A stretch of DNA of 64,000 nt from Prostheceraeus crozeri (Eukaryota; Platyhelminthes; Polycladida; Euryleptidae), in the NCBI GenBank assembly GCA_907163375.1, contig CAJQUW010006771.1:558001-622000 (forward strand), given 5' to 3'. Each line of letters opens with the position of its first letter. Position 1 is the stretch's first letter. The notes below the pieces were generated by a model, which was not told where the DNA came from, ran no database searches, and was given only the letters and a program-made list of their open reading frames with translations. The position numbers were made by a program, and so were the translations under genes. Positions 19,395 to 51,469 of the stretch are shown here, one piece after another.

Positions 19395-19402
19395 TATAAA
19401 TA
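19395..19402 (+). promoter_or_regulatory. TATA box (TATAAATA) of the first left-arm gene
   Basis: Just inside the left TIR and 94 bp upstream of the first start codon (19496). A plausible initiator (TCATTC) is about 30 bp downstream. A good core promoter for the rightward gene array. Confidence 0.65.
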
Positions 19403-19495
19403 ATGAGACTTTAGAGAGACAGTCATTCTATTTTTGAATCGTATAAGTGACGGACGCACGTTCTCTCAGCTCATCTATCCTACTTTTCAACTAGA

Positions 19496-20262
19496 ATGGT
19501 AAGTCAGAAAACTTCCCTCCACTTCCTTTCTTGAGTGTTTACCTAATCGCATCTTTCCGCTTTCAGGCTTCTACATCACTTACCAGACTAGATGCTGATG
19601 TCCAGACGGTGCAAGGTTCGCTACAATCAGGCCATATACAGTTGAGACCGGTGGAGGAAACAACACAGGTACATAATCCTACACCCCTACAGCGTAAATT
19701 TAGACAAGGCATGCGCTATTTCGATCATGCTATAGCGCTGGAAACGTGAATGATCCCTTCCACAGACGTGAGTGTGAAGAGGAATCAGTATGGAGACTAT
19801 GTCATCATTCCTGTAGCTCCGTACATACGTCGACAGCTTGACATTATTGAAGAATTTGTGACACTAAATATGGATATCCCTACTCCCCTTGACGAAGTGT
19901 GGAGAGCGAGAGATGACAAGGATACACCATATAAAAAGATTTGGGAAGGTGAACGACTTTCTCTACCACTATCGCATTGGTGTTCTTACTATCGAAAGGA
20001 TGGAGAACAAATAACACCCATCAGGTGTGAAGAGCTCGCAGAAGGCACTTGGAATATTCGTTTCACAATAAGCGGACTATATTATGGTTATCATAAGGAT
20101 AATAAATTGGCCTCTATAGCAATGCATACTCAATCCATCCTATATATACCGAAGCAGCCAGATGTTAATAGCATCATTGATCAAATCCTCAACGAGAGCG
20201 GTGGGAAGCACAAGTCAGAGAAGAATGTTGCCGGAAAACGCAAATCAAAGGAGAATCGCTAA
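19496..20262 (+). pseudogene. Unrecognised first left-arm protein, start codon split off by an intron, one in-frame stop
   Basis: ATG at 19496-19498 is followed at once by a canonical donor (GTAAGT). The acceptor TTTCAG ends at 19566, giving a 68-bp intron 19499-19566 in phase 0. The downstream frame then runs to a TGA at 19747-19749 and continues in the same frame from an ATG at 19750 to 20262. The second part (170 residues) has the motifs YGDYVIIPVAPYIRRQLD and FTISGLYYGYH and a Lys/Arg-rich C-terminus. I do not recognise the family. The position directly after the TIR and the TATA box suggests an early or regulatory gene, or a small virion protein. The TGA could mean decay, or the ATG after it could be the true start of a separate gene; the continuing frame favours one gene. 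Confidence 0.6.
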
Positions 20263-20296
20263 TCCTTTCCTGTCTCTACCTTATGACAATTCGCTT

Positions 20297-20422: not shown

Positions 20423-20465
20423 GATTTTTCATCCGATGAGTAAAACTATGTAATTGTCTTTTTAG

Positions 20466-21014: not shown

Positions 21015-21017
21015 TTC

Positions 21018-21512
21018 ATGCTGGAAGAAGTCATTCAATTAAAGCTTTATGTAAAGACTTGCTGTTTTTCATGCAATTGGAGGGATAGATGCAGGATGAC
21101 AATGTCTTTCTCAAATGATTGTGGAACATTGCGTTTTCATAGACAAGGTTTAAAAGGGACTATTCAAGATTATGTGATAACATTTCATAAAGATGAGATT
21201 AACATCAAATCAGTTATTGGTGATACTAGCACACTATTTTTGAAGTTAATGGATACGTTTTCTGATAAAATTGTAATGGCGCGATTAGTTGCGAAAATTC
21301 ATTTCAGTCATTTTGGGAAAGAAGAGGTAGAAGATCGTTTCTTCCACTTTGCTTCTTATTCGATGGAAGTTGTAGATAATCCTGAAGAATTTTTTGAAAG
21401 ACATATGGGAAAAATTGCTCAACATCTTGATGCATTTAACCATCATGATAGCAGTCGAGCGATTGAAGCAATTTCATATATTCACATTCAACTTTCTATA
21501 AAAGAAACTTAA
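21018..21512 (+). CDS. Protein resembling the N-terminal module of Polinton polymerases
   Basis: 164 codons from 21018; a start at 21098 is also possible. The region LVAKIHFSHFG ... EEFFERHMGKIAQHLDAFN ... IEAISYIHIQLSI resembles the segment preceding the exonuclease domain of Polinton-type polymerases (a beta-rich stretch, an 'I...L..F' helix, then a short beta-strand). No catalytic motif is visible. It follows the exonuclease gene by 3 nt. One possibility is that exonuclease and this module are separated relatives of polymerase N-terminal domains. The resemblance is weak and from memory of the family pattern. Confidence 0.45.
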   Translation: MLEEVIQLKLYVKTCCFSCNWRDRCRMTMSFSNDCGTLRFHRQGLKGTIQDYVITFHKDEINIKSVIGDTSTLFLKLMDTFSDKIVMARLVAKIHFSHFGKEEVEDRFFHFASYSMEVVDNPEEFFERHMGKIAQHLDAFNHHDSSRAIEAISYIHIQLSIKET

Positions 21513-21514
21513 AG

Positions 21515-21826
21515 ATGCAATGGTACTTGATCGTAGCACAATTGGTTTTCGAGTTATGTCTACTTACTCTCGAAGTATCTTCCTTCTGTACATGCGTCTA
21601 TTATTTAGAAAAGGCTAGCAAGTTCATGTCGTCAAAAAGACTAGCTTTAAAAATTGTTAATAAGAGTGAAAACATGTGTGATATATGTAAGCGAAAGGAT
21701 GGAAGTGAAAAACGCATCTTTAAGAGATGTAAGCATATTTTCTGCCAGCGCTGTTTCATACGCTGCTGTATTCAACTCTGTCAATGTAGCCACTGTGATA
21801 TAGCTCATTTTGAGTGTCACTTCTGA
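21515..21826 (+). CDS. RING-HC finger protein, candidate ubiquitin ligase
   Basis: MCDICKRKDGSEKRIFKRC followed by KHIFCQRC and C-x2-C gives C-x2-C-x11-C-x-H-x2-C-x2-C-x8-C-x2-C, a complete RING-HC signature. The best start is ATG 21626, just before the finger. The open frame extends to 21515 with a hydrophobic, Cys-containing segment (residues about 9-31) that could be a membrane span if translated. RING proteins act as E3 ligases, so a role in degrading host factors is plausible but inferred. It lies between the PolB-N-like gene and the GGFL virion-type protein. Confidence 0.65.
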   Translation: MQWYLIVAQLVFELCLLTLEVSSFCTCVYYLEKASKFMSSKRLALKIVNKSENMCDICKRKDGSEKRIFKRCKHIFCQRCFIRCCIQLCQCSHCDIAHFECHF

Positions 21827-21919
21827 CATAAAAGTTAGTACCCATGCAAATATGGAAAACTGAAGTTGCGACAATGGTAAAGAGAAAAATGGTCTACAGC
21901 CATTCGAGCTCTTCAACGA

Positions 21920-22207
21920 ATGAAAGGAAATCATCGATATAATGCTATACGACATGCTAATGATAAATTTATTCGAGAAATTGTTTCTCATGTGAGAAGT
22001 TTGAGGGCAAAGAAATTATCACCACAACAACAAAAGTTACTTAAGCGATATACTACAAAATTACGATTCATCTCCAATCCTAAAATCACCCTTCAAAGAA
22101 AGAGGAAAACTCTAACACAAAAGGGTGGTTTCCTTTCAGCACTACTTCCGATGTTAGAACCTGTAGTGGGCAACGTATTGGGTAGTATCTTTGGCTCTAA
22201 GCGTTAA
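21920..22207 (+). CDS. Small basic protein with C-terminal GGFL hydrophobic segment (Polinton virion-type)
   Basis: 95 residues: a basic helical N-terminal half (VRSLRAKKLSPQQQKLLKR) and a Lys/Arg-rich linker, then QKGGFLSALLPMLEPVVGNV, a Gly-rich amphipathic or membrane-active segment. This architecture is common in Polinton and adintovirus genomes and is compared with adenovirus minor core or membrane-lytic proteins. Function there is inferred from context. The open frame extends about 14 codons upstream without an ATG. It is intact and lies directly before the packaging ATPase. Confidence 0.65.
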   Translation: MKGNHRYNAIRHANDKFIREIVSHVRSLRAKKLSPQQQKLLKRYTTKLRFISNPKITLQRKRKTLTQKGGFLSALLPMLEPVVGNVLGSIFGSKR

Positions 22208-22238
22208 TTATGCAAATGTTGAATCTCAAAGTATTAAA

Positions 22239-22860
22239 ATGGATTTCAGACTTCAATGTGATAAAGTTCTGACTGCATCAGGTCCATCCCATGCAGGTAA
22301 AACTGTTTTTCACTCTGAATTTGCTAGACAAAAGAAAAGAATTGTTTAGGGAACCTATCAATCGAGTTATTTGCTGTTATGGTATTTATCAGCCGTCACT
22401 CTTTCAGGAATTGCAACGTCGCAACTTTATTCGAAATGAAGGAATTATTCGAGCTGATAAGATGGAGTCCAACGATGTCGTTGTATTGGATGATCTATTG
22501 AAGGAAAGCAAGAATTCTAAAGACGTTACAGATATGTTCATCCGCGTAACACATCAGAAAAGGTGCTTTATAATCTATATCACGCAAAATTTGTTTCCTG
22601 ATGGGAAAGAAGGCCGCACACGAAACCTGAATACGCACTATTACGCTATCTTTAAGAATCCACGAGATAGAAGTCAATTTGAAATTTTAGCGCGACAAGT
22701 TTCACCGAGAGGTTCAAAACCCTTATTAATTGAAATTTTTCAAGCGGCTACTGAAAAACCACACGGTTACTTATTTATTGATTTTACGCAAGAGTGTCCG
22801 GAAGAATTTAGATTTCGAAGTGATAGTTTGAAAAAGCCTATGATTATCTACAAACTATGA
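22239..22860 (+). pseudogene. FtsK/HerA-type genome-packaging ATPase, frameshifted
   Basis: The first frame, from ATG 22239, contains Walker A GPSHAGKT and stops at TAG 22347-22349. The remainder (22291-22860) is one base out of phase. It has Walker B (VVVLDDLL), the sensor-like stretch IIYITQNLF, and an R-x-N...KNPRDRSQFEILARQ region typical of A32-like packaging ATPases of Polintons. The phase change lies in the A-rich stretch 22325-22345. It is either a one-base indel that kills the gene or a sequencing error. The product would drive DNA into capsids. Its stop overlaps the start of the next gene by 4 nt (ATGA). Confidence 0.85.
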
Positions 22861-23588
22861 GCTCCTATTCTCGCATGATTGTCATTCCTCAGGATGAATA
22901 TGTGCAATTGACTGCTTTACAGCAAGTAAAGCAACCTCTAGCAAATCAAATTTATAAGAAAGAGCTGGATTATCAGGAAAATGCACATATTAAAGAACCA
23001 TATCGCGCAGTTTTATTACAATCAGAAACCGTTGAAGAATTGAAAAGTTTGAAGAATAAGATGCGTGACTCTGTTTCGACTGCTACACCTTTAGCATCTC
23101 GTGCACATGCAATAGCTCTTTTCAACAGCATTGAACCATATCTCAATATGAATGATGGAGGTGAAATCATTACAGATGATGATAAAATTATTAGCGCTTC
23201 GCGTTATGAAGACTTGATTCAGTATGCAACGCGTAGAAAATGTCGACAATGTTATGTCCCACATGGGATCCACAATGTTATGTCCACATTTCTTCAACTA
23301 TTGAAAAAGCATAATGTTCCAAAATTTGCATTGAATAATGAAACATTGAAAGAACTTGATTCTACTTAAGAAGTTGGTACTACTTCAAATGTTAATTCTG
23401 TTTCTAAAATTAGGAGTGTTGCAATGCCAAGAAATTGGTTTAAGAGTTCACCTTCTACATCTCCTTCTACACTTACTAAGAAAACAAGAGTAAGAGAACG
23501 ACGTAGATCTACACCCTCTAGGCAAACAAGAGAAAGAGATAGACGTAGAAGATCTCCACCAAAGAAATATATGTTCTCAGACTATTAA
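22857..23588 (+). pseudogene. Conserved Polinton protein of unknown function with Arg/Ser-rich tail, one in-frame stop
   Basis: 170 residues from ATG 22857 to TAA 23367-23369, starting MSSYSRMIVIPQDEY. It contains RRKCRQCYVPHGIHNVMSTF and a NVPKFALNNE stretch. The same frame continues past the stop for 72 codons to TAA 23586-23588, including an RS-rich basic segment (RERRRST ... RERDRRRRSPPKK). The uninterrupted in-frame continuation argues for one longer gene broken by a single nonsense change; an alternative is a separate small basic protein starting at ATG 23424. The family recurs next to the ATPase in Polintons. I know no assigned function; a structural role is plausible. Confidence 0.6.
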
Positions 23589-23651
23589 TATGAAGCAGAT
23601 GTGTTGCATGCCATGTAATGAACCGCCTTACTTACTGCATGTTGATGTAAC

Positions 23652-23825
23652 ATGTACTTGCTGTGCAGGTCTTACAGCGAGACTCCTAAGCAATGTGAAC
23701 ATGAACGTAAATCTGCTAAATCTTGTGGCTGTTGTAAGTGTAAAAAGACAAGAAAGCAAAAACATGAGAAGAAGGAGGAAGAGTCAGTCGCCATCACATC
23801 AACTTTTAAAGTCAATATACTATGA
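23652..23825 (+). CDS. Small Cys-cluster ORF overlapping the integrase start
   Basis: 57 codons in a different frame from the integrase, with the cluster CGCCKCKKTRKQKHEKK followed by an acidic stretch. The C-x-C-C-x-C cluster and the charged tail are not typical of random frames, but no homologue comes to mind. It could be a real small protein or a frameshifted leader of the integrase. Confidence 0.3.
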   Translation: MYLLCRSYSETPKQCEHERKSAKSCGCCKCKKTRKQKHEKKEEESVAITSTFKVNIL

Positions 23826-24852
23826 TGTAAAACATCCAGCAGGATTTGCATCTATAAAGAAATTGTCAAAAGCGAGTGGTCTTCCACAATCACAAGTTAA
23901 ACAATGGTTAAAGAGTCAGGCTACCTATACACCCCACAAACAAGCGAAAAAGAAGTACCGTGTCCGTCATTATATTACTCATGAAATTAATCAACAGTGG
24001 CAGGCAGATTTGTGTGACGTTGCCTCTATTTCAAAACATAACTGGGGGAATATTTTTATTTTGACAGTAATTGATATTTCCTCGCTATATGCGTGGGCTC
24101 AACCATTAAAACCTAAAGACGGTAAATGAGTAGCAAAGGCATTTCAGTCAATTTTCCAAGATGGTCGCATTCCAAAGAGAATTCAGAGTGATCAAGAAAA
24201 GGAGTTCGAAAATCAGCATGTAGGAAGATTGTTTGAGAGATATGACATTGAGTTGTTTAGTGTAAAGAGTGCCTATAAGGCTCCATTAGTTGAACGTTTT
24301 AACCGCACATTGAAAAATCGCGTGTGGCGACATTTTACTGCCAACTTAACACAAAATTGGACAAAGATTCTACAAGATACGGTACATGCCTACAATCACT
24401 CTGTACATCGCTCTATTGGACTCAGACCAGCAGATGTGAATGCTGACAATGTAGATGAAGTGCGTAAAACATTCCAACGTAAGCGTAATAATGCAAAAAG
24501 TGATGTAAAAATAGGCGATGAAGTTCGCATATCAAAAGTGAAGAGTGTTTTTGCCAAAGGTTATCTCCCGAATTGGACAGAAGAAATTTTTACAGTTTCA
24601 AACATCAATAAAAAAGACTCTCCCACAACTTACACGTTAAAAGATTACGATAATGAAGAGATGAATGGCAGCTTTTACCGTGATGAGATTGAGGTAGTCA
24701 CTGAAAGTGAAACATATTTGGTAGAGAAAATCATCCGTTGCAAAAAACGTCAAGGCGAAGAATGGTGTCTTGTTAAATGGCTCGGCTATCCTTCAAGTAT
24801 GAACTCTTGGATGCGTCGTGCAGACATTTTTCATCAAAGTGATCGCAATTGA
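23764..24852 (+). pseudogene. Retroviral-like integrase with C-terminal chromodomain, one in-frame TGA
   Basis: DDE integrase: an N-terminal helical region (PAGFASIKKLSKASGLPQSQ, then KQWLKSQATYTPHK); first Asp in WQADLCDV; second Asp in RIQSDQEKEF; Glu in APLVERFNRTLK. A C-terminal chromodomain follows: YLVEKIIRCKKRQGEEWCLV, then KWLGYPSSMNSW. TGA at 24127-24129 interrupts the catalytic core, but the frame continues correctly on both sides, so it is a single nonsense change. The open frame extends upstream to 23590; ATG 23764 is the most likely start. It would integrate the element with a 6-bp duplication, and the chromodomain would bind methylated histone tails to steer insertion. Confidence 0.9.
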
Positions 24853-24855
24853 TTT

Positions 24856-25357
24856 ATGCAAAACTATAACTTGCGAGTTCAAGATTTAAGTAATCAATTC
24901 GACTGCATCGTTTTATTCACGGCCCTCCTATGTAAGTGGCGCGGGTACAATTTACAGTGGTGCTCGCCGTCAACGTGGAGGTAGTATATTTGGCGCGCTG
25001 AAATCTGTTGTATCTCCTCTCTTATCTACTGTCGGAAAAACTTTAAAACGATCTGTTTTAAGTAATGCTGTTGGCTTTGCTGGCGATGTTGTCAATGATA
25101 TTGCTAGTGGAAAAAATATAAAGAGTAGTTTACTAAATCGTTGGAAGGAACGCGGTTTAAGAACATTACAACAAACTTTAAATGCTACACAACGAAAGAA
25201 AGCACCTAAACGAGTGAATGTTAGAAGAAAAAGAAAACAGCGCGGAGCTGGTAAGAGGCGAACTTCACGCAAATCTAAGAAAAGGCATTCACGCAAACGC
25301 AGTGCGCGCTCTAATCCTTCATCGCGTGCTAAACGACGACGCTGTCATAACTTCTAA
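24856..25357 (+). pseudogene. Basic virion (core/pVI-pVII-like) protein, frameshifted near its start
   Basis: From ATG 24856 about 18 codons run in one frame; from about 24911-24917 the next frame continues to TAA 25355-25357. The phase change is at the TTTT run at 24911-24914. The main body has RRQRGGSIFGALKSVVSPLL, a helical middle (VLSNAVGFAGDVVNDIASGK) and a very Lys/Arg-rich C-terminus with SRKSKK and RAKRRRC. Gly-rich hydrophobic N-terminus plus basic tail matches the protein usually found just before the Polinton capsid gene, likened to adenovirus core or membrane-lytic proteins. DNA-binding in the virion is inferred. Confidence 0.65.
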
Positions 25358-25359
25358 TC

Positions 25360-26633
25360 ATGGAGTGTAAAACTTCAAATTTTTGTTTGATGAACAAGCG
25401 ATACAGACAGATATTCTTAGTTCAAGTATTGTAGATTATCATCCTCGAACTGCTGAGAATACTGGTCCAATTGAATTTGTTATTCCTGGTGCTAGTGATG
25501 ACTACATTGATTTAAGTTATGCGATGGTTGATTTGCGGTTCAGAATTCAGCTAGCAGGTGGTACTAACATCGATGATGCACATAAAGTTGGTCTGAACAA
25601 TTTACCGCCGGCAACACTATTTCGTGATGTTTCTCTAACTATTGGAGAGCAACAGGTAGAAGGTGGACAAAGCGATTATCCCTATAAAGCATATTTCAAT
25701 GCCCTATCACAGTTTCATCCGTCAGCACAAAAGAGTCATATGGTGGCAATGGGATCGTTTAGAGATGAAGCAAAACAATTTGATAGTGAGACAAACGGTG
25801 GCTTTGTAAAGCGATCTGCTTTGATTAAAGATAGTAAAGTATGTCAGCTATATGGTCCACTAAATCTTGACTTCTTCAGACAGTCAAAGTTTTTATTCTG
25901 TAATACCAGCATGCGAGTCAAACTTACATTGAACAAGCCTGAATTTTTGTTGAATGCATATGCTAAAGTTGTCAATTTCAAAATCCATGTGGAAGATACT
26001 ACGCTATACATTCGTCGAGTGGTAGCTAATCCAAGTGTAATTAGAGGACATGCTGAGGGTCTTAACCGTAGCAATTCTATTTATCCCATTCAACATACAA
26101 AGCTTCTCACATTTACTATTCCTAAAGTTCAAAAAAAATTAATGAAAGATGGTCTATTTCCATCAGAAGCACCAAAACTCCTACTGGTAACAATGGTTGA
26201 AAATGATGCATTCAATGGCAATATCAAGAAGAATCCTTTCAACTTCAAACACAACAGTTTGAGCGAAATTGCTTTACGTGTAAATGGTTTCAGTCATCCT
26301 GGACCGCCCTATAGACCAAACTTCTCTTCTTATCAATTTTTGCGCAGCTATGTTGACTACATGAATGTCTTTGGCTTTTACAACACAGACGACACCAACG
26401 GGCTTACAATGAAAGAGTTTAAGAATGGCTATACTATTTATGCATTTGATTTGACTGCCGACAGTGATATTAGTGCACTTTATCGTCAAGCTAACGTTCC
26501 TCATAATATTCGCTTGGATCTGGATTTTAAAACAACGCTAGCTGCGACGATCAATGTATTGATTTATGCAGTTTTTGATTCAAATATTGAAATAACTAAG
26601 TATCGTGACGTGATTCTTCACTATAATCGTTAA
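25360..26633 (+). pseudogene. Double-jelly-roll major capsid protein, frameshift at extreme N-terminus
   Basis: The body (25371-26633) is fully open, about 420 residues, slightly short for the family. Recognisable blocks: GPIEFVIPGASDDYIDLSYA, LFRDVSLTIGEQQVEG, LDFFRQSKFLFCNTSMRVKL, SIYPIQHTKLL, and NPFNFKHNSLSEIALRVNG. These follow the order of the Polinton capsid fold. The frame has no ATG near its beginning. The only suitable ATG (25360) is out of phase, with the change in the T-run at 25380-25384, so one base may be missing. A TTG at 25383 is in frame but not credible. The stop overlaps the protease start by one base (TAATG). The product would form the icosahedral shell. Confidence 0.9.
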
Positions 26634-27094
26634 TGAGTTGGTTGAATGCTGACGATATTAAAGCTAAAGTACAGCGTAATGCAGACGAAGCGACGTTGAA
26701 AGCTTTTGATAATGTCTATTCGCTAGATACCCTACCAACTACAGTAAAACAGTATCCCATCTTTATTGTATTGAACACTCAGTCAAAGAATTTAGAAGGT
26801 GAACATTGGAAAGCTATCTTTATTGGAAAAGACAGACGCGGTGAACTATTTGACTCTCTTGCTCAACCTCCAAATATACCAACACAGCAGTGGTTGAGAA
26901 AACATACTCGTCAATATCAACGAAATGAGCGCATACTACAACATCCACTTTCATCATCTTGTGGTGCTTTCGTGTTGTACTTCATTTTAAAACGTTTGCA
27001 TGTACGTCGATTTAAATCTGTTATTCAAAAGTTTTCATGTAACCCATCTTCTAATGAAAAAATGATTTGTAAGTTTTATAATGATTTGAAATAA
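26633..27094 (+). CDS. Adenain-like (C5 family) cysteine maturation protease
   Basis: 153 residues, intact. Catalytic residues in family order: His in GEHWKAIF, acidic residue in ELFDSLAQPP, and Cys in SSSCGAFVLYF, with a Gln a few residues before (ILQHPL). The size is close to Polinton proteases. It cleaves capsid and core precursors during virion maturation in related viruses. The start overlaps the capsid gene stop (TAATG), which supports co-expression. It is one of the few core genes with no break. Confidence 0.88.
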   Translation: MSWLNADDIKAKVQRNADEATLKAFDNVYSLDTLPTTVKQYPIFIVLNTQSKNLEGEHWKAIFIGKDRRGELFDSLAQPPNIPTQQWLRKHTRQYQRNERILQHPLSSSCGAFVLYFILKRLHVRRFKSVIQKFSCNPSSNEKMICKFYNDLK

Positions 27095-27124: not shown

Positions 27125-27622
27125 TTATTTCACAATCCGCTGGGTATGTACATATTCGATTAAACGGTCTAGGATTGTATCTGCTTGCACTTCTGATTTC
27201 AGTCCAGTAATGATAACTTTACTGTTGTGAAAGATTGCAATATGTACAGGATTCCAACAATTAATGAGAGCTGCAGGAAAAAGCTGTGGTTCATAACACA
27301 AATTGTAGCTGCTGCTATGAATCTTCGAAAACAGATTCGACTTCACACACTTCTCCCTCTTCCATATTCGACGTAGTAGCTTCTGCAGTTCTAAGCGCAT
27401 TAACCGCGCCGATGAATGAGAAAGGGCGCCGAGAATTTGTAACGTCCCATTTGGAAAGAGTTGAAGTTTCCGTAAATTGCTCATCTTCACCACTAACATT
27501 TGCGGTCGACCCGGATAATACTTGCTGTTTGGAATTTGTTGATGTAATGTTGTGAGATCGATTTTGGTATAGAGTCTGATGCGGCGGAGAATGTTGACGA
27601 TGGTGCAACGATGACGTCTCAT
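27125..27622 (-). CDS. TATA-binding-protein (TBP) homologue
   Basis: 165 residues, intact, real ATG at 27622. Two TBP repeats are visible. Repeat 1 (about residues 7-85) contains IDLTTLHQQIPNSKYYPGRP and LFPNGTLQILGALS, matching the TBP L-D-L...N-x-E-Y-x-P-x-R and I-F-x-S-G-K-x-V-x-T-G-A-K-S blocks. Repeat 2 (about residues 95-160) contains CYEPQLFPAALI and IAIFHNSKVIITGLKSE, matching the diagnostic Y-E-P-E-L-F-P-G-L-I and I-F-x-S-G-K-x-x-x-T-G-A-K blocks. Three of the four DNA-kinking Phe positions appear kept (the Phe in LFPN, QLFP and AIFH); the first is Pro. It has no N-terminal extension. The stop TAA is part of an AATAAA signal at 27123-27128. Its ATG overlaps the stop of the upstream PC4-like copy (ATGA). 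Expected role: recruiting host RNA polymerase to the element's TATA boxes. I do not know of TBP in the standard Polinton gene set. Confidence 0.8.
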   Translation of the reverse strand: MRRHRCTIVNILRRIRLYTKIDLTTLHQQIPNSKYYPGRPQMLVVKMSNLRKLQLFPNGTLQILGALSHSSARLMRLELQKLLRRIWKREKCVKSNLFSKIHSSSYNLCYEPQLFPAALINCWNPVHIAIFHNSKVIITGLKSEVQADTILDRLIEYVHTQRIVK

Positions 27623-27948
27623 GATGAAGAAATGAGTAAATAGAGCGATTTTATCTTCCTTTTATACTTTTCCCAACTACCTTGATGAAACGTGAAGCAG
27701 ATAGAAAGTTGGGAATGATAGATTTGTATTCGTTGCTTTTTTAGCCGCAACCATATGCGATTTCCTATGCGTGAATGTCTTTTCATATAGAAGTACTTCA
27801 AGTCCTTCATGATATGATTTAGACATTGAAAATGTCGATCTGATAAAGCAAATTCTCTTCTCATATTTCCAGTATAGCCGTTGAAATAAACGTTTAGATC
27901 ATAATCAATCTCAACATGTTATAGGGAATCTAATTTCCAACTCTTCAT
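27619..27948 (-). pseudogene. PC4-like single-stranded-DNA-binding coactivator, copy 1, nonsense codon at residue 10
   Basis: A paralogue of the gene at 28005-28340. ATG at 27948 opens MKSWKLDSL, and TAA at 27919-27921 follows where copy 2 has CAA (Gln). The same frame continues to 27619 through FQCLNHIMKDLKYF, RIGNRIWLRLKKQRIQIYHS and GSWEKYKRK, all aligning with copy 2. It could also initiate at the internal ATG 27864 to give an 81-residue product without the first beta-strands. It overlaps the TBP-like gene by 4 nt. A single C-to-T change explains the stop. Confidence 0.65.
27657..27666 (-). promoter_or_regulatory. TATA box (GTATAAAAGG) of the TBP-like gene
   Basis: A consensus TATA box on the minus strand, 35 bp before the TBP-like ATG, inside the last codons of PC4-like copy 1 (the W-E-K-Y-K-R part). 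The equivalent site exists in PC4-like copy 2 at 28051-28060. Confidence 0.6.
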
Positions 27949-28004
27949 GATGGAGCGTGACATTGTATTGAAGGTGGTGTCTGATTAAGATTTGCATAGC
28001 AAAG

Positions 28005-28340
28005 CTATGAACTCTCGACGAATAAATGACATAATGGAGCGATGTATCCATCTTTTATATTTTCCCAATTGTATTTGCGAAATGAAAAATAGATTGAGGA
28101 ATCAGAATGACAAATTTGAATTTCATTTCTGTAATGTTGAAGCCAAACTTGATTACCGAAAGAGATGAATTTTACCGTTTCAAAATATTCCAAATCCCTC
28201 ATGATGTCATTAAGATTTAAAAATTGTCGCCATGTTAATGTAATTCCTCTCGATGTATTTCCATGAGAATTTTTGAAATGAACGTTTCCATTGCGATCAA
28301 CTTTGATGTATTGTTGAGAATCCAAAATCCAAGTCTTCAT
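28005..28340 (-). CDS. PC4-like (p15) transcription coactivator / ssDNA-binding protein, copy 2
   Basis: 111 residues from ATG 28340, chosen because the paralogue starts at the equivalent Met; the open frame extends to 28391. The N-terminal half reads YIKVDRNGNVHFKNSHGN and then RGITLTWRQFLNLNDIM. This matches the PC4 pattern of beta-strands followed by K/R-G-I-S-L-x-x-x-Q-W-x-x-L and a helix. The C-terminal half (VWLQHYRNEIQICHS ... FSFRKYNWENIKDG) is shared with copy 1. PC4 proteins bind ssDNA and help TFIID-dependent transcription. Lying next to a TBP homologue makes a joint transcription role likely. The 5' end runs head-to-head into the rightward gene at 28379. Fold assignment is from pattern only. 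Confidence 0.62.
   Translation of the reverse strand: MKTWILDSQQYIKVDRNGNVHFKNSHGNTSRGITLTWRQFLNLNDIMRDLEYFETVKFISFGNQVWLQHYRNEIQICHSDSSIYFSFRKYNWENIKDGYIAPLCHLFVESS
28051..28060 (-). promoter_or_regulatory. TATA-like site (ATATAAAAGA) upstream of PC4-like copy 1
   Basis: On the minus strand within the 3' coding end of PC4-like copy 2 (codons W-E-N-I-K-D), about 100 bp before the start of copy 1. Same place and surroundings (GGGAAAA-TATAAAAG) as the TATA of the TBP-like gene. Promoter use is inferred. Confidence 0.45.
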
Positions 28341-28852
28341 GATGTTATGCAAATTGGTAATATATAGATCACCAGAATATGAAAATGTCATTTTACCATA
28401 TTTTGCTTAGCAATGTAGCAACAAATAGATTTGCTGGTAATCGAGCCGCTATCTTTTCTACTCCCATTGATAATATACAACAGCTGAATGGAGAGTGGGA
28501 AGTAGGGGTCACACAACTTGTTCACAGTAACTGTGTCTATACTTTTGATCATGAGGTGATGACTATTAATATGAGACGCACAGCTGCTTACCAATGTGAA
28601 AAGGGCTGCCAAGTATACATTCCACAATGTCCGAACAAAGATCTTCTATCACGCCAGAAATTCGTCTATGATTTCCTGAATAAAGCGTGTAAACATATTG
28701 TCCAATTTACTCCGCACAATGATGATCATGATTATCTACATCATGTAGTTGAGAAAGATTGGATTGTTGGTTTAAGTCCAAGTTTAAGAAATGATCTAGG
28801 TTACCTCGCTAGCGCCTTAACAAGCTATGATAATTATAACGTTAATTACCAC

Positions 28853-31800
28853 TAGTGATGAAAATTTTCCGGAAAATTTTGAATCAAAATTTTCCATGGA
28901 AAATTTTGGAAAAAATTGGAAAATTATGGAAAATTTTGAAAGTTCTAATTTTTTGTGATAGGCCCTCTGCTTTGACCGCTTCTACAGCCGAGGCAGCTAC
29001 ACACCAATAGCATGGGTCTAAAAGTGGTGATCTTGATCATCATTTTGATTAAACCGATTTTGAAAAATGAAAAAATTTGAATTTTTGTGACATAATTTTT
29101 ACGTTTTCTATCACAGCCGATCGAGGCATGCATAGACACATCAATAGAATTGTTCCAAATCTCTTGATTTCATCATATCATTTCGATTAAAACAATCGTG
29201 GCAATACGAATCCCGTTCGCGGATTTTTTAGCATTCCTTTGCCACCAGTGGCTTGTGGCAATTTGTTGGCATTTTTAATATTATAACACAGACATCTTTT
29301 GGGACAACGTGAATTTTTTTCCTTTACGATAGGGGTATAATTTCATGCATTGTGAAAGATCTGGAGCAAAAAGAATGCACTTTATTTGGGAGCTTGTTTA
29401 TGGCTTAAAAGTTAAGCTTTATCATGCAGCCTTGATTGCAATGATACAAATTCTCCATGTGTTGATGAACATGTGAAGCACAGGCACACAGTCCAACACA
29501 GCATTATGCATGAGCGACGATATATTGGAAGATAAGACTGTAAGCTCGTGAGATATTTGGAAACTAAAGATATCTGTGATGAGTATAAGAAAATCTATAT
29601 GATAGCTTCTAACTTCTGGGGTAATGTCCGATATCTTCGTGGAGGACAAAAACTACACATCTTCCATTTCTAGCTCAGATGGTTCAGATAGTTCCAAATC
29701 GATTTCAGATCTGTGAATTTCAGACTTTTCCAGATGAATTGGAGATTCTCCAGTTGAATCTAAGATCCTTTCAAAGTTGAGTTTCTGACAAACAGGGCTG
29801 TGGAGCCGATGCGTTATCTCATCGGCTCCGGCTCCACGACGCTGATGTGAAAGGCTCCGGCTCGGCTCCGGCTCCGGCTTCAAATTCAGGTTCTATCTAT
29901 GCTGGTTATCATGGATCCGTTGAACGGGTTTTTTGGATAACGGTGTGGCCCTCAGAGGCTTGCTACAATCATCAAATTAGTTTTCATTAACAAGCAACGA
30001 CTTAAGTCAATAATAAGAATGATAATAGCCTAATATAATGACAAATAACATACTTGTCATATATTTTTGCATGAATTGACTATCTCTGAAAGATAAAATA
30101 AAGTTATAGCCAGGATTGGTTAAATTAGATAAAGATCTCCCGCACTGACTAAATATAAATTGGCCTAGCCTGCAACCAGTCTACTACGAGGCTACATTAA
30201 ATAAGACCACATGAGTGATGATGATACTAATTAGCCGTCACAGGTGCCGAATAGTAGTATAAACTTTTTAACAAAGCTTGAATATGAAACTGGATAGCGT
30301 ATGCCTCTAAATAGCTTATAGGGCCTGTATCTACTCGAACATGGAAAGGGTATCGGTTATATAGCCAAATATACCGTATCAATAAAGATATCAATTGCTT
30401 TATTGAATATTAAAGTGTATATAGGCTAGCTTAGGTTGTTATTGCCTTTATTCAATAGTCTGTTGGTCCATGAATAATATGATCGGTGGGTAGCCCACGA
30501 CTCATCATCTGTAGAAATTGTAATTTAGATAGGCTCATTGCAGTGTAGGCTAGAAATGTACAATTGAAAATTATACTTAAAAAAATTAAAAATATCTAAT
30601 TTAGGACAAGTTTTGTAATTCTATGCAGCATACTTAATAAGTTAAGGCCTAACTTACATTATATTAATTTCGTATTTTTCATTATGGCGTAAAGTTGCAC
30701 TAAATAATTCATCAATGATTCATGTATATTATTATATTCAATTTATGTATAACACATTACCACTATTCCTCTGATGATGGTTAGGCTGATGAAACTGAAC
30801 TCGGAGTATCACACAGTATGTTGCAGGGTGCTATGCATAATAAAAATTTGACTGCGAGCACCGACCAGAAATCCCATCTACTTTGCTAGCTTTCGAATGC
30901 GTGTGCGGTTTAATGTCACAGACAATAGAAAAGGGAGGTCAAAAGGCGCCTTTTTTTACTGAGAGCGTCTCAGTCTTTTTTTATTGTTTACATATAAGTC
31001 AGCATGATATCAGCATAAAGTGTTGACAGACGGAAAAAATAATAATGAAAATTCTTGAAATCCACAGGTCTATGACATTTGGGGAAATATTATTACACGA
31101 TACGGCTCTTGTGCAGTCCTCCCCCCCCATTTTTTCTCTGGTCAAAAGATGCAGCACCATTGGATGTCCGTTTCAGCATCACCGGTTTGAGTGAAGCATT
31201 CCGTGCTGTTGTAAAAATCTACGTGGGTAATTGCGATGTCATGGTCGAAAACTTCGTCAGCAAGTCAACATTGTAATTTGCCTTCGGGTTTTTCGCATTG
31301 AAATATACCCTTTGAATTTTGAAGTCAAAGGAAATTCATTGTGAATGAGATACCTTTAAAATAATAGGGCGCTACTAGAAGTGGCTGGGTCGCTTATTGC
31401 TATAGCCATGTGAGGACTTGTAGTCAGGTCATTCGTGTGAGTGTGAAGAGTTATCCCTCCAATCAAAATTGATCAAATTGAATAATCGATTGTTTTGAAA
31501 AATGTAGGTGGGGGGACTGCACAAGAGCCTACAATACAATCTAAGGAAATTGGCATTGTCACAGATGCCAGTAGCTTCTGCCAGTAGCCATACCGATAGA
31601 TGATAGCCTACATAGTAACCGTATTAGATTTAAGACATTGCGCAGGAAATGTAGCTATATTATCTCTGCTGACTGAACTGGAAATGTGTACATAAATGAC
31701 TGGCGACTTGTCTCTAGGAATCTACAATCATCTAGTTAGCATGCATATAACAAGTCTTCAAATTAATGGATTTTGGAGAATACGTTGTCAATATGGAAAT

Positions 31801-32453
31801 TAGTCTTACGAAACATATGCAATAAAAAAATATTACACATGTGTGTAAATATATAATAAATATAATACAAAAGAAGGCGGCAACTGCAAAGAAAGATATC
31901 GTGGAGGACAGATCATTGGTATACTTAAAAGACATATCTTTAGATTTCAAATGATTTAATTTTTTTATGATGCCAATTAATAACTTTCAAAATTCTAGAT
32001 TTATATCAAAGCTCAAACTATCGGAGCCGGAGCCTTTGTGATAAATCGGCTCCGGCTCCGACCAAAACCATCGGCTCCTTAAGGCTCCGGCTCCAGCTCG
32101 GCTCCGGCTCCACAGCCCTGCTGAAAAATATCTGAAATTCACTTAGAGAAATCTGAAATCCATTTAATATCTGATATTCAGTTGGAAAGATCTGAAATAG
32201 ACATGGAAAGGGTGCAGTTGGTTCCAAAAGTTAACATGCAGGGATGATAGAGAAGTTCTCGGCCTTTGAATGTTACATTGTCTTTTCAAACGACTGCAAC
32301 AAGTCTCCAAAACAAAGGCAAAAACGTCAATCACCGAAAAAAAATTTCAAAATTTTCCATTGGAAAATTTTCCGGAAAATTTTGAAAAAATTGGAAAATT
32401 TTCCGGAAAATTTTCTGGAAAATTTTCTGGAAAATTTTCCATTTGCATCACTA
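28853..32453. mobile_element. hAT-like element (TAGTGATG ends) inserted in a Polinton gene
   Basis: Ends TAGTGATG and CATCACTA are flanked by a perfect 8-bp duplication, ATTACCAC (28845-28852 and 32454-32461). Sub-terminal blocks are dense in GGAAAATTTTCC-type palindromic words. Without the nested element (29793-32120) and its 8-bp duplication it is about 1.27 kb, the same size and sequence family as the copy at 41720-42909 in the opposite orientation. No transposase; the 64-codon frame at 28945-29139 recurs in the other copy but has no domain, so this is a non-autonomous family. Confidence 0.85.
29793..32120. mobile_element. Second hAT-like element nested in the first (CAGGGCTGTGGAGCCG ends)
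   Basis: Inverted ends CAGGGCTGTGGAGCCG and CGGCTCCACAGCCCTG have near-duplicate 8-mers outside, CTGACAAA (29785-29792) and CTGAAAAA (32121-32128), one mismatch. Sub-terminal GGCTCCGGCTC repeats occur at 29820-29878 and 32025-32110. It is 2,328 bp with no recognisable transposase (non-autonomous). The nesting orders the insertions: Polinton first, then the 1.27-kb hAT, then this one. Confidence 0.8.
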
Positions 32454-33429
32454 ATTACCACCCAAGTGGTCATAAACAGTTAATATATCGAGAAGAAGCT
32501 TATTATGTAGATCTTATTCCAAGAAATGAGAAGACGTTGGTGAAGAAGATTGTGATTAAGCCAAGAAAGACAAACATGACTCCTGAAACATTATTGAAGA
32601 AGTTTAATTATCTCCTTCGAGTTGATGGTAAACAAGTGGCAACATTGACTTATATCAAATCATCTAATCATATTGCAATAAGTAAATTAAATGTTGATGA
32701 TCTAGTATTAGTTTGTTCAAAAGATTTTCATCAGTTTTTACGACATCGTTCTGCAGGTGTTCATGGAAAATTTGGTATGCAACATTTACCATGTGAAAGG
32801 TCAAATCAATTTGATACAGAATGGACCGTATCTTTATACAGAAAGCGTATAGAGCCTTTAGGTGGTATCTTGCATAAAACAAGAGTGTTGATGCCTCGCA
32901 TTATTACTTCAGTTAAATTGGTTGTAGATTATTTAAATGAAGTGATTAATGAGCAACATATTTCAATTTCTGAAAAAGAAGGTGCTTTGTCTCTCACTAT
33001 AAGTGGAAAAGGTATTGAACTAATTATGGATAAAACTCTAATGGACATTTTGGGTTTTGATCGAAATATCTTTAAAAGTGGTACTGTAACCAAAGTTAGC
33101 GCAGACATGTCGCTATTGCGTCGTATTAACTATTTTCAGATATATTCCAATATTGGTGAAGATGTACGTGTGGGAGATGTTGAAGCTCCATTGCTAGTAA
33201 TGATACCATACCAGCCAAAAAGCTGCAGTATTTTATCTGAGCATACTTTCAAGAAAGTGCATTATACAAAGCTGAAATCAAACTACATCCCAAAAATTGA
33301 TTTGCAATTCATGACGATGCTGGTGCGTTGATTCCTTTTCATAAAGATGCTGTAACAAGTATCACACTCCATTTCCGAATGAAGAGTTAATGCAAAAGTA
33401 TGCTAATATATTTTTCCAATGTGATTAGT

Positions 33430-34955
33430 ATGGAAAGTGAAAATGGAGATTTGTTTCTAATTTACTTACCCAGTAATGCTTCTATGAATAAATTTCCTAA
33501 TAATAAACCATCAGACTTTCGAGTAGAATTAAATCGCTCACTACATCTAGAAGGTGAATGGGAAGTAGGTGTTTCCAGCATTTGCTATGATAGCAATATT
33601 CAGAATGTGAATGATTTGGAAGAAATGATATTGACTCCTCGCACCCATGATGGAATAACGATGAATAATGCTTTCCAGTTCCAATACAATTTAACGTCAG
33701 ATGGAAAGTGTAACTATGAATGGATTCAGATAAAATCAGATTATTATGGTCCATTTGGGGATGAGAAAATTATTAAGGCATTCAATAGTGGTAATACCTC
33801 CATCATGAAGAATAAGGATCAGAAAGTTTATGAGTTTGCTATCATGGCTGATACATTGGAGTGGGAGACAGTTCCTTCGCTTTCATTCTTTTACTAAGGT
33901 CTTACACTGAGGTTGGATAATGAATTCTATCCACATCTTGGTTTTGGCCGTGGACTACATCTAGCGTCAATTGCTACTGCAAATGTTAAAAAAGTTTATT
34001 CAAATCGAATCAACAAATTTCATTATAAATTTAAAATATTTGATGAAGATGTTGTAGAATGTGAAGAACGCATCATTTTGAAAAAGCGTGGTGTTCAACC
34101 TTTATCACTTATTGAGTTAGTAAAACGATGGAATGAGACTGTGGGTAAGAAGTATGGAGAAAAAATTATGGCGGACAAAAATAAGTTGATCATTCAGAAA
34201 TATAATGACAAACTTACAGTTTATTTCTCTCCAACCTTGCGTCATTTTGTAAGACATCATACACCTATTATTGGAAGCGGTTTGGTTTATGCTTCTCATG
34301 AATATCACACTAAAGCTGATTCAGTTAATGATGAATGGTGGGTGGATATCTATGGTGATCGCATCAAGAAAATTTACCAGTCTTATCAAGAATCTAAAGT
34401 TGCTATCAATATAATGCCGCGTCTATATCATACAGTTGAAAGCTTCATTCATGTAATAAATCCCTATATACAACAGAAGTTGAAGCATGTGATGAAAAGT
34501 AAATATGATATAAAGACACACCACATTTCGTTTTCAATTGAAAATCAACGCGTTGTTCTGAAACTGGGTGATGACATTCAATGTCAATTGAGTAAAAATT
34601 TGAAAAACTCTTTGGTTTTTCAATGCTACAAAATATGTTTACTGCTGCGCATACGATTGGTATAGAAACACCAATGACATTTGATAAACATGAACAACAC
34701 CTCTACATTCAAGGTGATTTGATTCTACCTATTTCTGTTGGCGAGGAAAAAGAACACATTTTACTTGATTTCATTCATGATAAGGATGCTTTATATGGAA
34801 TTGTCGAGAAGATGTTTCAACCTATTTTCTACCATCCTGTTATCAAACAAACTATACCATCTATTTCTATCAAAATTACAAATGGTCTACATGAGTGCAT
34901 CCATGTCAAAGTGACTAAATCCCTCGCAACTTTAGTGTTTCGGAAAACAAAGTGA
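33430..34955 (+). pseudogene. G-E-W-E-V-G family structural protein 2, one stop and one frameshift
   Basis: The start region (MESENGDLFLIYLPSNASMN, then a P-N-N-x-x-S-D-F stretch and LEGEWEVGVSSICYDSN) is the same family signature as in the preceding gene. TAA at 33895-33897 is in frame with the continuation from 33898 (TLRLDNEFYPHLGFG). Near 34605-34625 a one-base phase change at the TTTTT run joins a C-terminal part ending at 34955. Both paralogues share the middle block (HFVRHHTPIIGSGLVY here, HQFLRHRSAGVHGKFG there; DEWWVDIYGDRIKKIYQ here, DTEWTVSLYRKRIEP there). Roughly 500 residues. Likely a virion surface or vertex component. AATAAA follows at 34978. Confidence 0.65.
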
Positions 34956-35006: not shown

Positions 35007-38000
35007 TCACAGATATATGGGGAATGGGCTGACTGTAGGCATATATTGCAGGAAGTGCAATCTAAAGCGATACATAAAACAACAATGAATGTCAACAAAA
35101 GCATCATCAAAATACTGATTTGAGACTGAATCTATTTGCACATCTCCTGAATGTGGTAGTGTGAGTTTAATTCTTTTGGTTAGTGATATGTTTATATCAG
35201 GATGACCATGTGGAAGAGATATGTTATGCCCTTTCCAACACCTCTTATCTTACCACGCTGAAAGTGCTCGCTTTCTAAATGTATGAGTTTTTACCTCATG
35301 CGTCTTTGATTTTAAGATGGTCATGTTGACAAACGTTACACACGTATTTTCAAAGGCCTTCTGATAGACCCTGTTTCATATTTACAACAATCGATTTAGA
35401 TATGCCTTTTGCGCGCTTAATACTGTCACTTGAGTCTTTTGGTTTCATAGAATGCATTTTAGGACGAAGAAGAATCATTTCCTTAATTTCTTTTCCTGCC
35501 ATTTCATTTTTGAAGCACCCTAATTTTGCTTTATTTTTAGTAGAGTATAGTGGGTGATCTGTAGGATAAGTTGACGTATCAAAATAATTTTCTAAAGATT
35601 TTCCTATTTCATTGAAGTCTAACTCTTTCTGAGCAGCGATACTTAAAAAGAAACTGTCTCTATCACCACCCAGCAAACGCACGTCTTCAATTAGAGGACA
35701 TGGTTTTAATATTCTTTAGAAGAGTTGATACATTTCAAGCTTGGAATAATCTAATACAGCTTGTCCAATGTAGATGGCCTTGCACAACTCTACTTCTGAT
35801 TTTATCATTTTAACACCAACCAACTCATCATCTATAATATCTCTATCAATAAAGAGAGGTGATGCCGCTAACTTTTGGAATTTATCATTATGATTCACAA
35901 GTTTATAGTTTATACGTTTTCTAACATCCTCCATCGTCTTACCAAAAAGACTATTATTCTTATATTTATAAAAATCCTTTTCAAAATTATTTTGGGCTAG
36001 TGCACGTTTCTGGCTGTTACTATCAATATATGGTTTCAGAAAGGCTTTCTGTCTAAATTTGATAATGCGGTGAACCGTTTTTAAAATCATGCCCATTTCT
36101 AAATAAAATTTTCAGATGGAAAGGTAGACTAGATAATTTTCTTTATCAAATTGAGAAAGCAAAAGTATGCGACAAGGCTTATACTTGGGCTGTCCACTCC
36201 CTTCTGAATCTTTATGAAATTGTTTCATAAAGTCCAAAAACATATCTTCAGTCACTTCACCTGATTCGGGCGCAAGTGGAAAATCCACAGTTTTATTTTT
36301 AATACTATTTGGATAGATAAGATCTACCTCAAAATAATATCCCCAATCACCATCATCTGGAATAGCTAGTATGTTTGAAGGATTGGAGAAATGTTGAATT
36401 TCACTATCACCTAGCCAGCTAAACTCAGAGTGAAGTAGAGGTTTGGATAGTGAACTACCATATAAATTATTCTGGTCATAGTACTTTAGAGGAATCTGAT
36501 CATCATCTACTATTTTTGATTTTATTTGATGTCTATTTACAAATGTGAGACCACCGCGAATTCCTCGCTCAAATAAATTGTACATCTCTGGATCTTGTAA
36601 AAGATGGATGCTCTCTCCAGTCATTTTAAAAGCAGACTGGAATGACATGGCTGGAAGACTGACAAAGTGGATAGGGTGTAATTTATCTTCTTCTAATGTC
36701 ACTCGCCGAAACTCCTGAAATACATCAGCCAGCAAAAATACATCTAAGTTTAGATAGGCAATCATATAATCGCTAAACGTTTGACAGTCAAATTTTGTCC
36801 ATGCAACTTGAGCATGATTGTAATCTTCTACCCTACATTCTATACCAGTCAAATCATTTTTAAATTTATCTATTGATGGAAGAGAAGTCTCACTAAGTTT
36901 AGAAATGTTATGAAAGTATGCATATGGAAACACTCCTTTGCGTGTGATGACTTCATCCGTCAAGTTGGGATATTGTTTCTTCAAATTTTAAGTTAATGGA
37001 AGAAACTTAAGATTTTGAACGAGAGATGCTAGTGATGAAGTCATGAATTGATAGGAATCTAAAAATTTTATATCAAAGTAGACTGTCTTATTTTCTTTAG
37101 TCTTATCAACTGGTACTTTTGCTGTCATGGACATAAATTTTTCCCTCGTTTTAGCTATAACATTCATCAACCATCCCTTCATTTTTCCTAACCCCCCTTT
37201 TATTATCATATGGCTGTCATAGCCTCTGAAGTTATGAAACATTACGGGTAGAGTGCGCCGCTTCATTCTTAGAGAAAAATTGCATCTTGAACACAGTGCG
37301 TTTCTAAATTTGCCAGTGATGTGATCATGGTCACGCACTTTCTTAATTTTACCCTCATCAAACGTTTTATTACATTTTGAGCAGACTTTACAACTTTCAA
37401 ATTTTACCTGATCATCTGCTGTCATATTTAATGATCTGTGATAGAGTTCACTATCATATTTTTGTTGAAATTTACTAGCACTTTCCAGGAATTGCAAGAA
37501 TTTGTGTATACAATCCTCACCTTGCCAGACGTGCATTTTATCATTTTTATTTTGGAAATGATTATGCCATACCTCATAACAGGATATGGCTGCTGGCTTG
37601 TGGATGTTATCATCAATATAGCATTCGATGTCAGCATAGATGACACGAAGAGGACTTAATTCACTACCATTCTCTCTATATGAAAAGATTTTATCTTTGG
37701 GCATGCGTTCCATTTGCAATTTACCTCGCTTACACCATTCATAATGTTTTTGAAACTTATCTTTTGACCAGAAGGATCTCATACAACGATCACATATGAA
37801 ATGCTCCCCCCTTTTGGATGTTAAGTGGGAATATAGTCGATGAATATTTGGAATACCGCAGTAATGCCATTGTTGACTGCTATCCTCATATACCAACAAG
37901 AGGTTGACAACGCGATCATAAGTTGATGAACGTTTGTTGTAGCGTACACCTTTAAGTCCTTTTTGCCAGACATGAACAACTATTTTAATTTCATTTAATT

Positions 38001-39099
38001 TTTCAAATTTCTTTATATCTTTCAATTTCATATCTTCACTATTACAGTCATCAAATTTCAATTCATTCTCACATGGATGATATTTGATTTTGCGGAAACG
38101 GTTGTTCTGTACATCATGATAGTGGAGAATGGATAAAACCGCATACTTAAAACAGTGCGATTCACAATCTATAGAAATGACTGCTTTCTTATCTTTTAAC
38201 GTCTTTGGAAGATTGAAGGAGCCTCGTCTACTGTAATTTTCTAATAGAGTAATTTTAAACATGGCAGATTCTACACCATCAAAAATCAAACCTCTATCGC
38301 GCTCGTTAAATTTATCAATATTTGATTTCAGCCCTTGAATGTGAAAATTTAACCATATTTCTTTATCTACCAGCTCTGTAGCAGGAGAGGAGGGTATGTG
38401 AAACTCCAACTGCACTATTTCGCCAGTATAATGATCAACTTTAGCATATTTTATTTTAAAATGGATGAGCCCTTATATTCTAAAGTTGTCTAAATTTCTA
38501 AAGAGCGCATCTATTAATATTGAATTTTGATGAAACCACTCCGGAAAATCAGCAATGGCTTCTGAGGATTCCATCTGGTAATTTCTCACTACATTATTAA
38601 GCGACACTTCAGTGAGACGGATAGAGGAGGTGCTGTTACTATAACTATCATTTGCATGCGTGTGGTGAAGTCTATGTGAAGGTAATTCAAAACGTGTTTC
38701 AAAAGATTGAGTGCAAAAGTCGCAAGTAAAGGAGACATGTTGAATAGAATCATCCTCACCTCGGGAGATTGATGATGTCTTGGGTTGACATATACGTTGT
38801 CTGATGTGCCGGGCGAGATCACGCTTCCTTGTAAAGATGTGACCACAATCAGCACATTCCCGCTCATTAGATTCCCGCGACTGTCCGCTTGAACTGGTAC
38901 TAACATCACCTGAAAGAGAAATCATACTATCATCTCTATTAAAGTTATAGTTTATTGTTACAACCTACCTTCACTTAACAGCTCTAAAGTTTCCTCGAGA
39001 AGGGAGCGATTTGCTGATGAAGTAGATGGCTGAAATTGAGAAAGATGCTATTAACCAAACGTTGGAGGGAGATGAGTGAAGAAATCTTCAACTTACCAT
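35007..39099 (-). pseudogene. POLB: Protein-primed DNA polymerase B (Polinton POLB), three exons, several in-frame stops
   Basis: Exon 1 is just ATG 39097-39099 followed by GTAAGT; exon 2 is 38969-39029; exon 3 starts at 38909 (introns 67 and 59 bp). Two C2H2 fingers come first (CADCGHIFTRKRDLARH and CDFCTQSF...H...H). Later zinc motifs are CDRCMRSFWSKDKFQKHYEWC-like and an EndoVII-like CKVCSKCNKTF...DHDH. Exonuclease motifs: VIYADIECY, FHNFRGYDSHMI, YLNLDVFLLADV. Polymerase motifs: A YYDQNNLYG, B KNNSLFGKTMEDVRKR, C GGDRDSFF (D-R-D where D-T-D is usual). A C-terminal RKRALSAW...DKR block lies near 35240. One frame from 38909 to about 35310 is broken by TAA 38473, TAA 36988, TGA 36112 and TAA 35716. 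A phase change near 35298 and a further TAA follow near the C-terminus. Not functional as written. Confidence 0.92.
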
Positions 39100-39224
39100 T
39101 TCAACGAAAACATGTTTAAGTATGATACTTCAATGCTAGAAAATTGCATAGTTTATCAAAATAGAGACTTCACTTATTCTCAATACGTATCAAATATAGA
39201 ATGAAAAATAAGTCTGTTTCCCCC

Positions 39225-39235
39225 CTTTTATATAC
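39225..39235 (-). promoter_or_regulatory. TATA box (GTATATAAAAG) of the polymerase gene
   Basis: On the minus strand, about 125 bp before the polymerase ATG at 39099 and preceding a G-run. The rightward gene at 39331 starts about 100 bp to the other side, so this is a divergent intergenic promoter region. Confidence 0.65.
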
Positions 39236-39993: not shown

Positions 39994-40002
39994 TATATAA
40001 AT
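39994..40002 (+). promoter_or_regulatory. TATA box (TATATAAAT) of the 40053 gene
   Basis: 51 bp before the ATG at 40053, with a TTCTCATTCACATC initiator-like stretch about 30 bp downstream. Canonical spacing. Confidence 0.65.
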
Positions 40003-51452: not shown

Positions 51453-51469
51453 ATGAACAAGATTATGTT

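Follow-up and report, generated by a model that had tools for sequence, protein, structure and literature searches.

A TBP gene in a decayed Polinton-type element of Prostheceraeus crozeri and the diverged TBP family to which it belongs

A minus-strand open reading frame (ORF; positions 27125-27622) in the genome of the flatworm Prostheceraeus crozeri encodes a TBP homologue. It lies in an element that we file as a decayed Polinton, within a 64,000-nucleotide stretch of contig CAJQUW010006771.1 that was analyzed as a whole and is called the window here. By its sequence, the ORF is a member of a distinct and diverged TBP family. We put it at about even odds that the intact members of this family act as a second TBP, likely made early, which would bring host TFIIB and RNA polymerase II (Pol II) to the late genes of the element. 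Since the window copy is degenerate, this claim about mechanism rests on the family and not on the window ORF.

The initial annotation had named this ORF a TBP homologue, pointing to the motif CYEPQLFPAAL and to three of the four intercalating phenylalanines, and all of this is borne out. The 165-aa product matched PF00352 with an E value of 1.2e-16 (60.8 bits; cut-off 22.9) in two stretches corresponding to both lobes, and solved TBPs in the PDB matched down to E=2.7e-9. The residue alignment confirmed the motif and the three phenylalanines. The frame had also been called intact because it is open. However, alignment to its relative P0001, to which it is 76% identical, reveals that 16 residues after SNL are absent, with the junction at about 27331/27332. 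The absent residues form strand S1′ of lobe 2, including its DNA-contacting Asn and Val; lobe 1 is complete. About the same stretch of lobe 2 is absent from one of the 38 relatives aligned (P0125). In the predicted structure, lobe 1 of the window protein superposes on TBP. At the two positions that contact TFIIB, the window protein carries Glu and then Gln.

Among 3244 candidates, a search with the family profile (A1) identified 154 relatives (E≤1e-3). The best 120 of these each scored at least 194 bits and each carry PF00352, and the best solved cellular TBP reached 78.5 bits with the same profile; the remaining 34 lie outside the examined set and could include cellular TBPs. PF00352 was matched by all 38 relatives sampled. 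Names given by the source exist for two of the 120 listed relatives, and both names are TBP. The longest contigs of the relatives reach 24,690 bases, which is the size of Polintons; for P0026, P0038, P0039, P0040, P0060, and P0088 the longest contig measures 14.5-24.7 kb. A tree was built from 38 relatives, the window protein, and five cellular TBPs, with TRF, mirusvirus, and giant-virus TBPs left out of the sample. One branch (support 100/100, length 1.35) split the window protein and its relatives from the cellular TBPs, and the window protein grouped with P0001 and P0002. This separate and fully supported branch speaks against a recent copying of the host gene.

Our argument draws on the residue pattern of the family and on the promoters. 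Counts were taken, in yeast numbering, over 120 of the 122 family proteins, each of at least 140 aa (two shorter ones were dropped), aligned with yeast and archaeal TBP; the L205 position falls in an alignment gap and is outside the counts. The DNA face of lobe 2 is kept: N159 and V161 in 119/119, F190 and F207 in 120/120, and T215 in 119 of 120 proteins. Glu stands at each of the TFIIB positions, E186 and E188, in 118/120. On a TATA box, lobe 1 of TBP sits over the downstream half. In lobe 1 of the family, N69 (99/99) and F116 (120/120) are kept, and five further positions have changed. The intercalating F99 is Pro in 117 of 119 relatives and in the window protein, the other three phenylalanines being kept in 120/120; V71 is Met in 102/110, L114 and V122 are each Gln in 120/120, and T124 is Leu in 112/120. 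Helix 2 has turned from basic to acidic, K133 being Glu in 98 and K138 being Glu or Asp in 112 of the 120 proteins; these two lysines are presumably part of the TFIIA surface.

Published work gives these positions a meaning. The acidic pair C.L3.2 and C.L3.4 (human E284 and E286) is the TFIIB contact of TBP, and the basic cluster of the N-lobe is the surface for TFIIA, Mot1, TAF1, and Brf (PMC7221094). We mapped the acidic pair to yeast E186/E188 through the motif YEPELF; PMC12529657 prints E184 and E188. Known viral TBPs keep this pair poorly and are mostly accompanied by a viral TFIIB (PMC7221094). Taken together, the residues lead us to infer a family whose members bind host TFIIB, escape the regulators of the host, and recognize a site of which one half is altered.

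The same pattern bears on two other explanations. In the first, the window gene would be a captured gene in decay without any function in the element, as the missing strand and the damaged neighbours of the window copy might suggest. On the other hand, the DNA and TFIIB positions are near-invariant across at least 120 relatives, a sign that the family is under selection, and we consider decay of this kind very improbable. In the second, the protein would interfere with the host by taking its TFIIB or its TATA sites, lowering host transcription or blunting a TBP-dependent defence of the host, with no positive role on the promoters of the element. Such interference would suit a protein that retains its TFIIB-contact positions but has altered its DNA face and regulator surface, as this family has. 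However, the lobe 2 DNA face and both L5.1 phenylalanines are kept in 120/120, suggesting that DNA binding still matters, and interference seems unlikely to us.

A TATA-TCATTT sequence stands at promoter spacing upstream of the TBP gene, as a probable promoter of host type, its TATA starting 44 nt before the ATG. We counted 12 sites of the pattern TATAWA-(20 to 27 bases)-TCATTY in the window, where 1.49 were expected and 100 shuffles never gave as many; the pattern was framed after some of the sites had been seen, and the 12 rows include two that overlap and two copies from a tandem duplication. The sites include both end modules of the element (19395 and 39234), the TBP gene (27666), and two places beside the element (39994 and 41324). 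Another site, at 28059, lies upstream of the second copy of a small protein encoded next to the TBP gene, and it is also within coding sequence. The relatives echo this arrangement. Fifteen of the 122 family proteins pass a filter for a predicted start at least 15 codons before the presumed native Met. In their N-terminal extensions, Ile-Lys stands 14 codons before the Met in seven and 13 codons before it in two, ten have His 4 codons upstream of the Met, and 10 of 13 have Gly 17 codons upstream of it. Decoded as AGT-ATA-AAA and TCN-CAY-TTY-TTY, the extensions give TATAAA and TCATTT at about the spacing seen in the window. On this reading, a core promoter of host type is probably common to the TBP genes even of distant members. 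Alternatively, the extension pattern might come from an overlapping upstream coding frame.

The abundance of TATA-TCATTY sites in and beside the element also suits an explanation without any switch of boxes, in which a regulator-resistant TBP binds these ordinary sites, escapes Mot1 and TFIIA, and raises transcription. Helix 2 is acidic in most members, and viral TBPs have been argued to evade host regulators (PMC7221094). Against this, F99P, L114Q, V122Q, and T124L are nearly fixed, which is odd for a reader of the canonical box. We find it a doubtful explanation, though one that deserves weight.

In the scheme that we prefer, the element TBP would likely be made early from its host-type TATA promoter. 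Lobe 2 would still bend one half of the site and hold TFIIB, as both acidic contact positions are kept, and lobe 1, with its four substitutions, would read the changed other half. The acidic helix 2 would free the protein from host TFIIA, Mot1, and TFIID, and host TFIIB and Pol II would then be brought to the late genes of the element. The most tentative step is the identity of the changed site, for which we propose (T)TATGCAAA. In its full form, this would be a two-TBP switch: early genes, including that of TBP, would use host-type TATA-TCATTY promoters, and the element TBP would then read (T)TATGCAAA on the packaging and virion genes, ignoring TFIIA, Mot1, and TFIID. We hold the full switch as a tentative possibility.

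The core of the proposed site, ATGCAAA, lies 29 to 40 nt before five packaging- or virion-like ORFs, namely the ATPase-like gene, the small ORFs 21881-22207 and 24890-25357, and the two related virion-like ORFs that start at 28379 and ~33430. A sixth copy is on the minus strand, inside coding sequence. Six of 17 upstream regions contain ATGCAAA, a count that no word attained in 2000 random sets; the motif had first been spotted by eye, and six of those 17 starts were set by hand after it had been seen. Of the six copies on the plus strand of the element, five lie in its intergenic part (10.4%), for a motif that was again chosen beforehand by eye.

Several observations weigh against the scheme, both in its protein and in its box. 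The window copy is probably inactive because S1′ of lobe 2 is missing and the second TFIIB position is Gln; its lobe 2, without S1′, is a low-confidence model, and the whole model is poor (pLDDT 54). The element setting is seen for the window copy only. Viral-contig scans with the TBP or small-protein alignments and with the PolB and capsid-candidate ORFs yielded no relative's locus, and a genome-contig scan likewise yielded none. As to the box, ORF starts taken mechanically carry ATGCAAA in 2 of 18 cases. It occurs in 5 of 13 intergenic segments, a value reached in 194 of 3000 random and 17 of 3000 Markov sets. Across the window, ATGCAAA was counted 33 times against 25.06 expected (10/100 shuffles as high), TWATGCAAA 8 times against 4.07 (7/100), and TATGCAAA 10 times against 5.39 (2/100). 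The candidate capsid, protease, and integrase ORFs have no ATGCAAA upstream. Counts of the longer pattern TATAAAAG were at chance level. Furthermore, ATGCAAAT is also the octamer of POU factors, which offers a rival reading of the ATGCAAA box. With statistics so mixed, ATGCAAA is a candidate late box and a lead.

The initial annotation had also seen, in the two small ORFs directly upstream of the TBP gene, tandem PC4-like coactivators marked by the motif RGITLTWRQF. These ORFs are paralogues (42% identical over 66 aa), each of them damaged (Table 1), and four relatives of the protein were found (P0009-P0012). No Pfam family, PF02229 included, was matched at E≤10 by either window ORF or by these four relatives. 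Profile comparison with two PC4 sequences gave Prob 1% and E=0.055 over 16 columns around RGITLTWRQF, and it is over these columns that the small protein and human PC4 are alike. The predicted structure (pLDDT 67) has a strand-helix pattern with two strand-helix units in one chain, unlike human PC4, and PC4 is absent among the matches listed in the Foldseek searches. We therefore set the PC4 identity aside as unsupported by Pfam, the PDB sequence search, the profile comparison, VIA, and the Foldseek matches listed, although a PC4 fold may yet lie beyond those listed matches. We likewise dropped a second idea, in which a single unit had been duplicated at the sequence level to give the small protein, since hhalign of its halves did no better than shuffles (97/100 as high).

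These results bear on a further explanation close to the original idea, a two-part opening of promoters in which TBP would be joined by the small protein, taken as a diverged single-strand binder of PC4, Whirly, or Pur type. Neither the profiles nor the fold matches listed point to PC4, and with four small-protein relatives found, any pairing is indicated at most for this close lineage; we judge such a partnership improbable. Thus, of the proposal that the element has its own core-promoter recognition system, the recognition part stands as the most likely reading, on the residue pattern and the promoters, and the TBP-PC4 partnership fell with the PC4 identity.

Cellular TBPs (yeast, human, and archaeal) and the element TBP are alike in their two lobes, three of the four intercalating phenylalanines, both Asn, and the TFIIB-contacting glutamates. 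They differ in that the element TBP is about 20 to 25% identical in fold matches, carries F99P, L114Q, V122Q, T124L, and an acidic helix 2, and falls on a separate branch. ORF24 of Kaposi's sarcoma-associated herpesvirus (KSHV), together with the TBP mimics of beta- and gammaherpesviruses, resembles it as a TBP fold, encoded by a virus, whose DNA face is more polar; it works with host Pol II (PMC12529657), as we predict for the element TBP. KSHV ORF24 serves late promoters with a changed box, TATTWAA (PMC12529657), and a changed box is what we propose for the element TBP. In contrast to the element TBP, ORF24 has all four phenylalanines, no TFIIB acidic residues, extra domains, and five partner proteins (PMC12529657), whereas the element TBP is a bare TBP core with the TFIIB positions kept. 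By analogy, ORF24 would be the closest working model. The TBPs of giant, pox-, asfar-, and mirusviruses are likewise of PF00352 type with a diverged regulator surface (PMC7221094, PMC11410667, PMC10132985). A survey of viral folds places TBPs in large double-stranded DNA viruses (PMC11410667), and mirusviruses carry one (PMC10132985). These large viruses mostly have their own TFIIB, and about 40% of their TBPs keep C.L3.2 (PMC7221094). Unlike them, the element is much smaller, and its TBP family has Glu at both TFIIB positions in 118/120.

Vertebrate Mavericks/Polintons resemble the window element in their PolB and protease genes, and probably in their integrase and ATPase-like genes and inverted end modules; they range from 12.7 to 24.6 kb (PMC8097293). 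In the text of that paper, "TBP", "TATA", and "PC4" have no occurrences. The literature on Polintons/Mavericks that was searched held no Polinton-encoded TBP; on an early-late switch of Polintons, the literature searched gave no answer. If our reading holds, virus-encoded TBPs would no longer be confined to large DNA viruses but would occur in far smaller elements too, and a promoter system might be gained that is separate from that of the host yet relies on cellular TFIIB and Pol II. It would also become possible to test the early-late switch of Polintons. What each half of TBP does could be learned, as from a natural experiment, from a family that keeps the TFIIB contact, drops the regulator surface, and has half of its DNA face rewritten. 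Were the two-TBP switch true, no smaller genome would, to our knowledge, have a promoter-recognition TBP of its own for host Pol II.

The initial annotation had placed the gene in a Polinton, and the surrounding genes agree with this (Table 1). PolB and the Ulp1-type protease are above their Pfam cut-offs. For the integrase, Chromo is above the cut-off (E=2.9e-7) and the rve_3 core is below it (E=0.0073, 16.5 bits; cut-off 26.5). The ATPase-like piece 22291-22860 had no Pfam match at E≤0.1. The candidate capsid ORF had no Pfam match, no capsid in the PDB search, and no match in phage records. Pfam scans of 28 ORFs or pieces showed no TFIIB gene, in an element that is broken and has some ORFs outside the scan. 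The inverted end modules near 19.4 and 39.2 kb, candidate terminal repeats, are 70% alike over 86 columns. The segment that shares repeats with 41.7-44.6 kb is read as an insertion. With candidate ends and a candidate capsid gene, the whole is filed here as a decayed element of Polinton type that spans about 16-20 kb.

Table 1. Positions of the TBP gene, its surroundings, and the candidate promoter elements in the window
Feature	Position	Strand	Basis
TBP-family ORF, 165 aa	27125..27622	-	PF00352, PDB TBP matches, alignment to P0001
TBP gene core promoter, TATAAAAGG ... TCATTT	27630..27666	-	sequence, pattern scan, echo in relatives
Second copy of small upstream protein, split by in-frame stop, adjoins TBP	27619..27949	-	ORF list, paralogue alignment
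First copy of small upstream protein; C-terminus departs from frame of relatives P0009-P0012	28005..28340	-	alignment
Left end module: TATAAATA, TCATTC, ATG, intron-like GTAAGT...TTTCAG; inverted relative to right module	19395..19578	+	
Right end module: TATATAAAAGG, TCATTC, ATG, intron-like stretch	39018..39234	-	
Packaging ATPase-like gene: Walker A GPSHAGKT, then frame break	22239..22860	+	by eye
Integrase in two pieces, C-terminal chromodomain	23494..24852	+	Chromo, rve_3
Candidate capsid ORF	25371..26633	+	position and length only
Ulp1-type protease	26633..27094	+	PF02902 E=4.2e-5, 23.9 bits (cut-off 20.7)
Protein-primed type DNA polymerase B (PolB), broken pieces	35350..38472	-	PF03175 E=3.5e-6, 26.6 bits (cut-off 25.8)
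Endonuclease VII domain in upstream PolB piece	36988-38415	-	PF02945 E=1.1e-7
C2H2 zinc-finger ORF just before upstream PolB piece	38473-38925		
Stretch with repeats common to 41.7-44.6 kb, ~3.6 kb, splits element	28856..32440	.	
ATGCAAA, candidate late box before ORF 21881-22207	21844..21850	+	
TTATGCAAA, candidate late box before ATPase-like gene	22208..22216	+	
TTATGCAAA, candidate late box before basic ORF 24890-25357	24854..24862	+	
TTATGCAAA, candidate late box before ORF 28379-28855	28345..28353	+	
TAATGCAAA, candidate late box before ORF starting ~33430	33388..33396	+	

Further observations concern the ends and the remaining genes of the element. In both end modules, the ATG is followed by an intron-like GTAAGT...TTTCAG stretch (19495-19578 and 39018-39100), as though each outermost gene began with a short exon inside the repeat. 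Beyond the right module lie two TATA-TCATTC sites, 39994-40027(+) and 41291-41324(-). The site at 41324 precedes a small ORF, 41016-41279(-), in the layout of the TBP gene. Given these sites and this layout, the element or a neighbour may extend to about 41.4 kb. At the left end there are four unassigned ORFs (19750-21826, plus strand); the first three had no Pfam family at E≤0.1, and the last has a RING-like Cys pattern by eye. Two related virion-like ORFs, 28379-28855(+) and 33400-34955(+), have the motif GEWEVGV in common. To the left of the element, 17072-17261 forms a perfect-like hairpin of 190 bases with two 85-base arms that are 96% complementary. To its right, a tandem duplication of about 5.5 kb (46318-51803 and 51818-57302) is 99.8% identical and contains repeats of 328 and 61 bases; it could be recent or an effect of the assembly.
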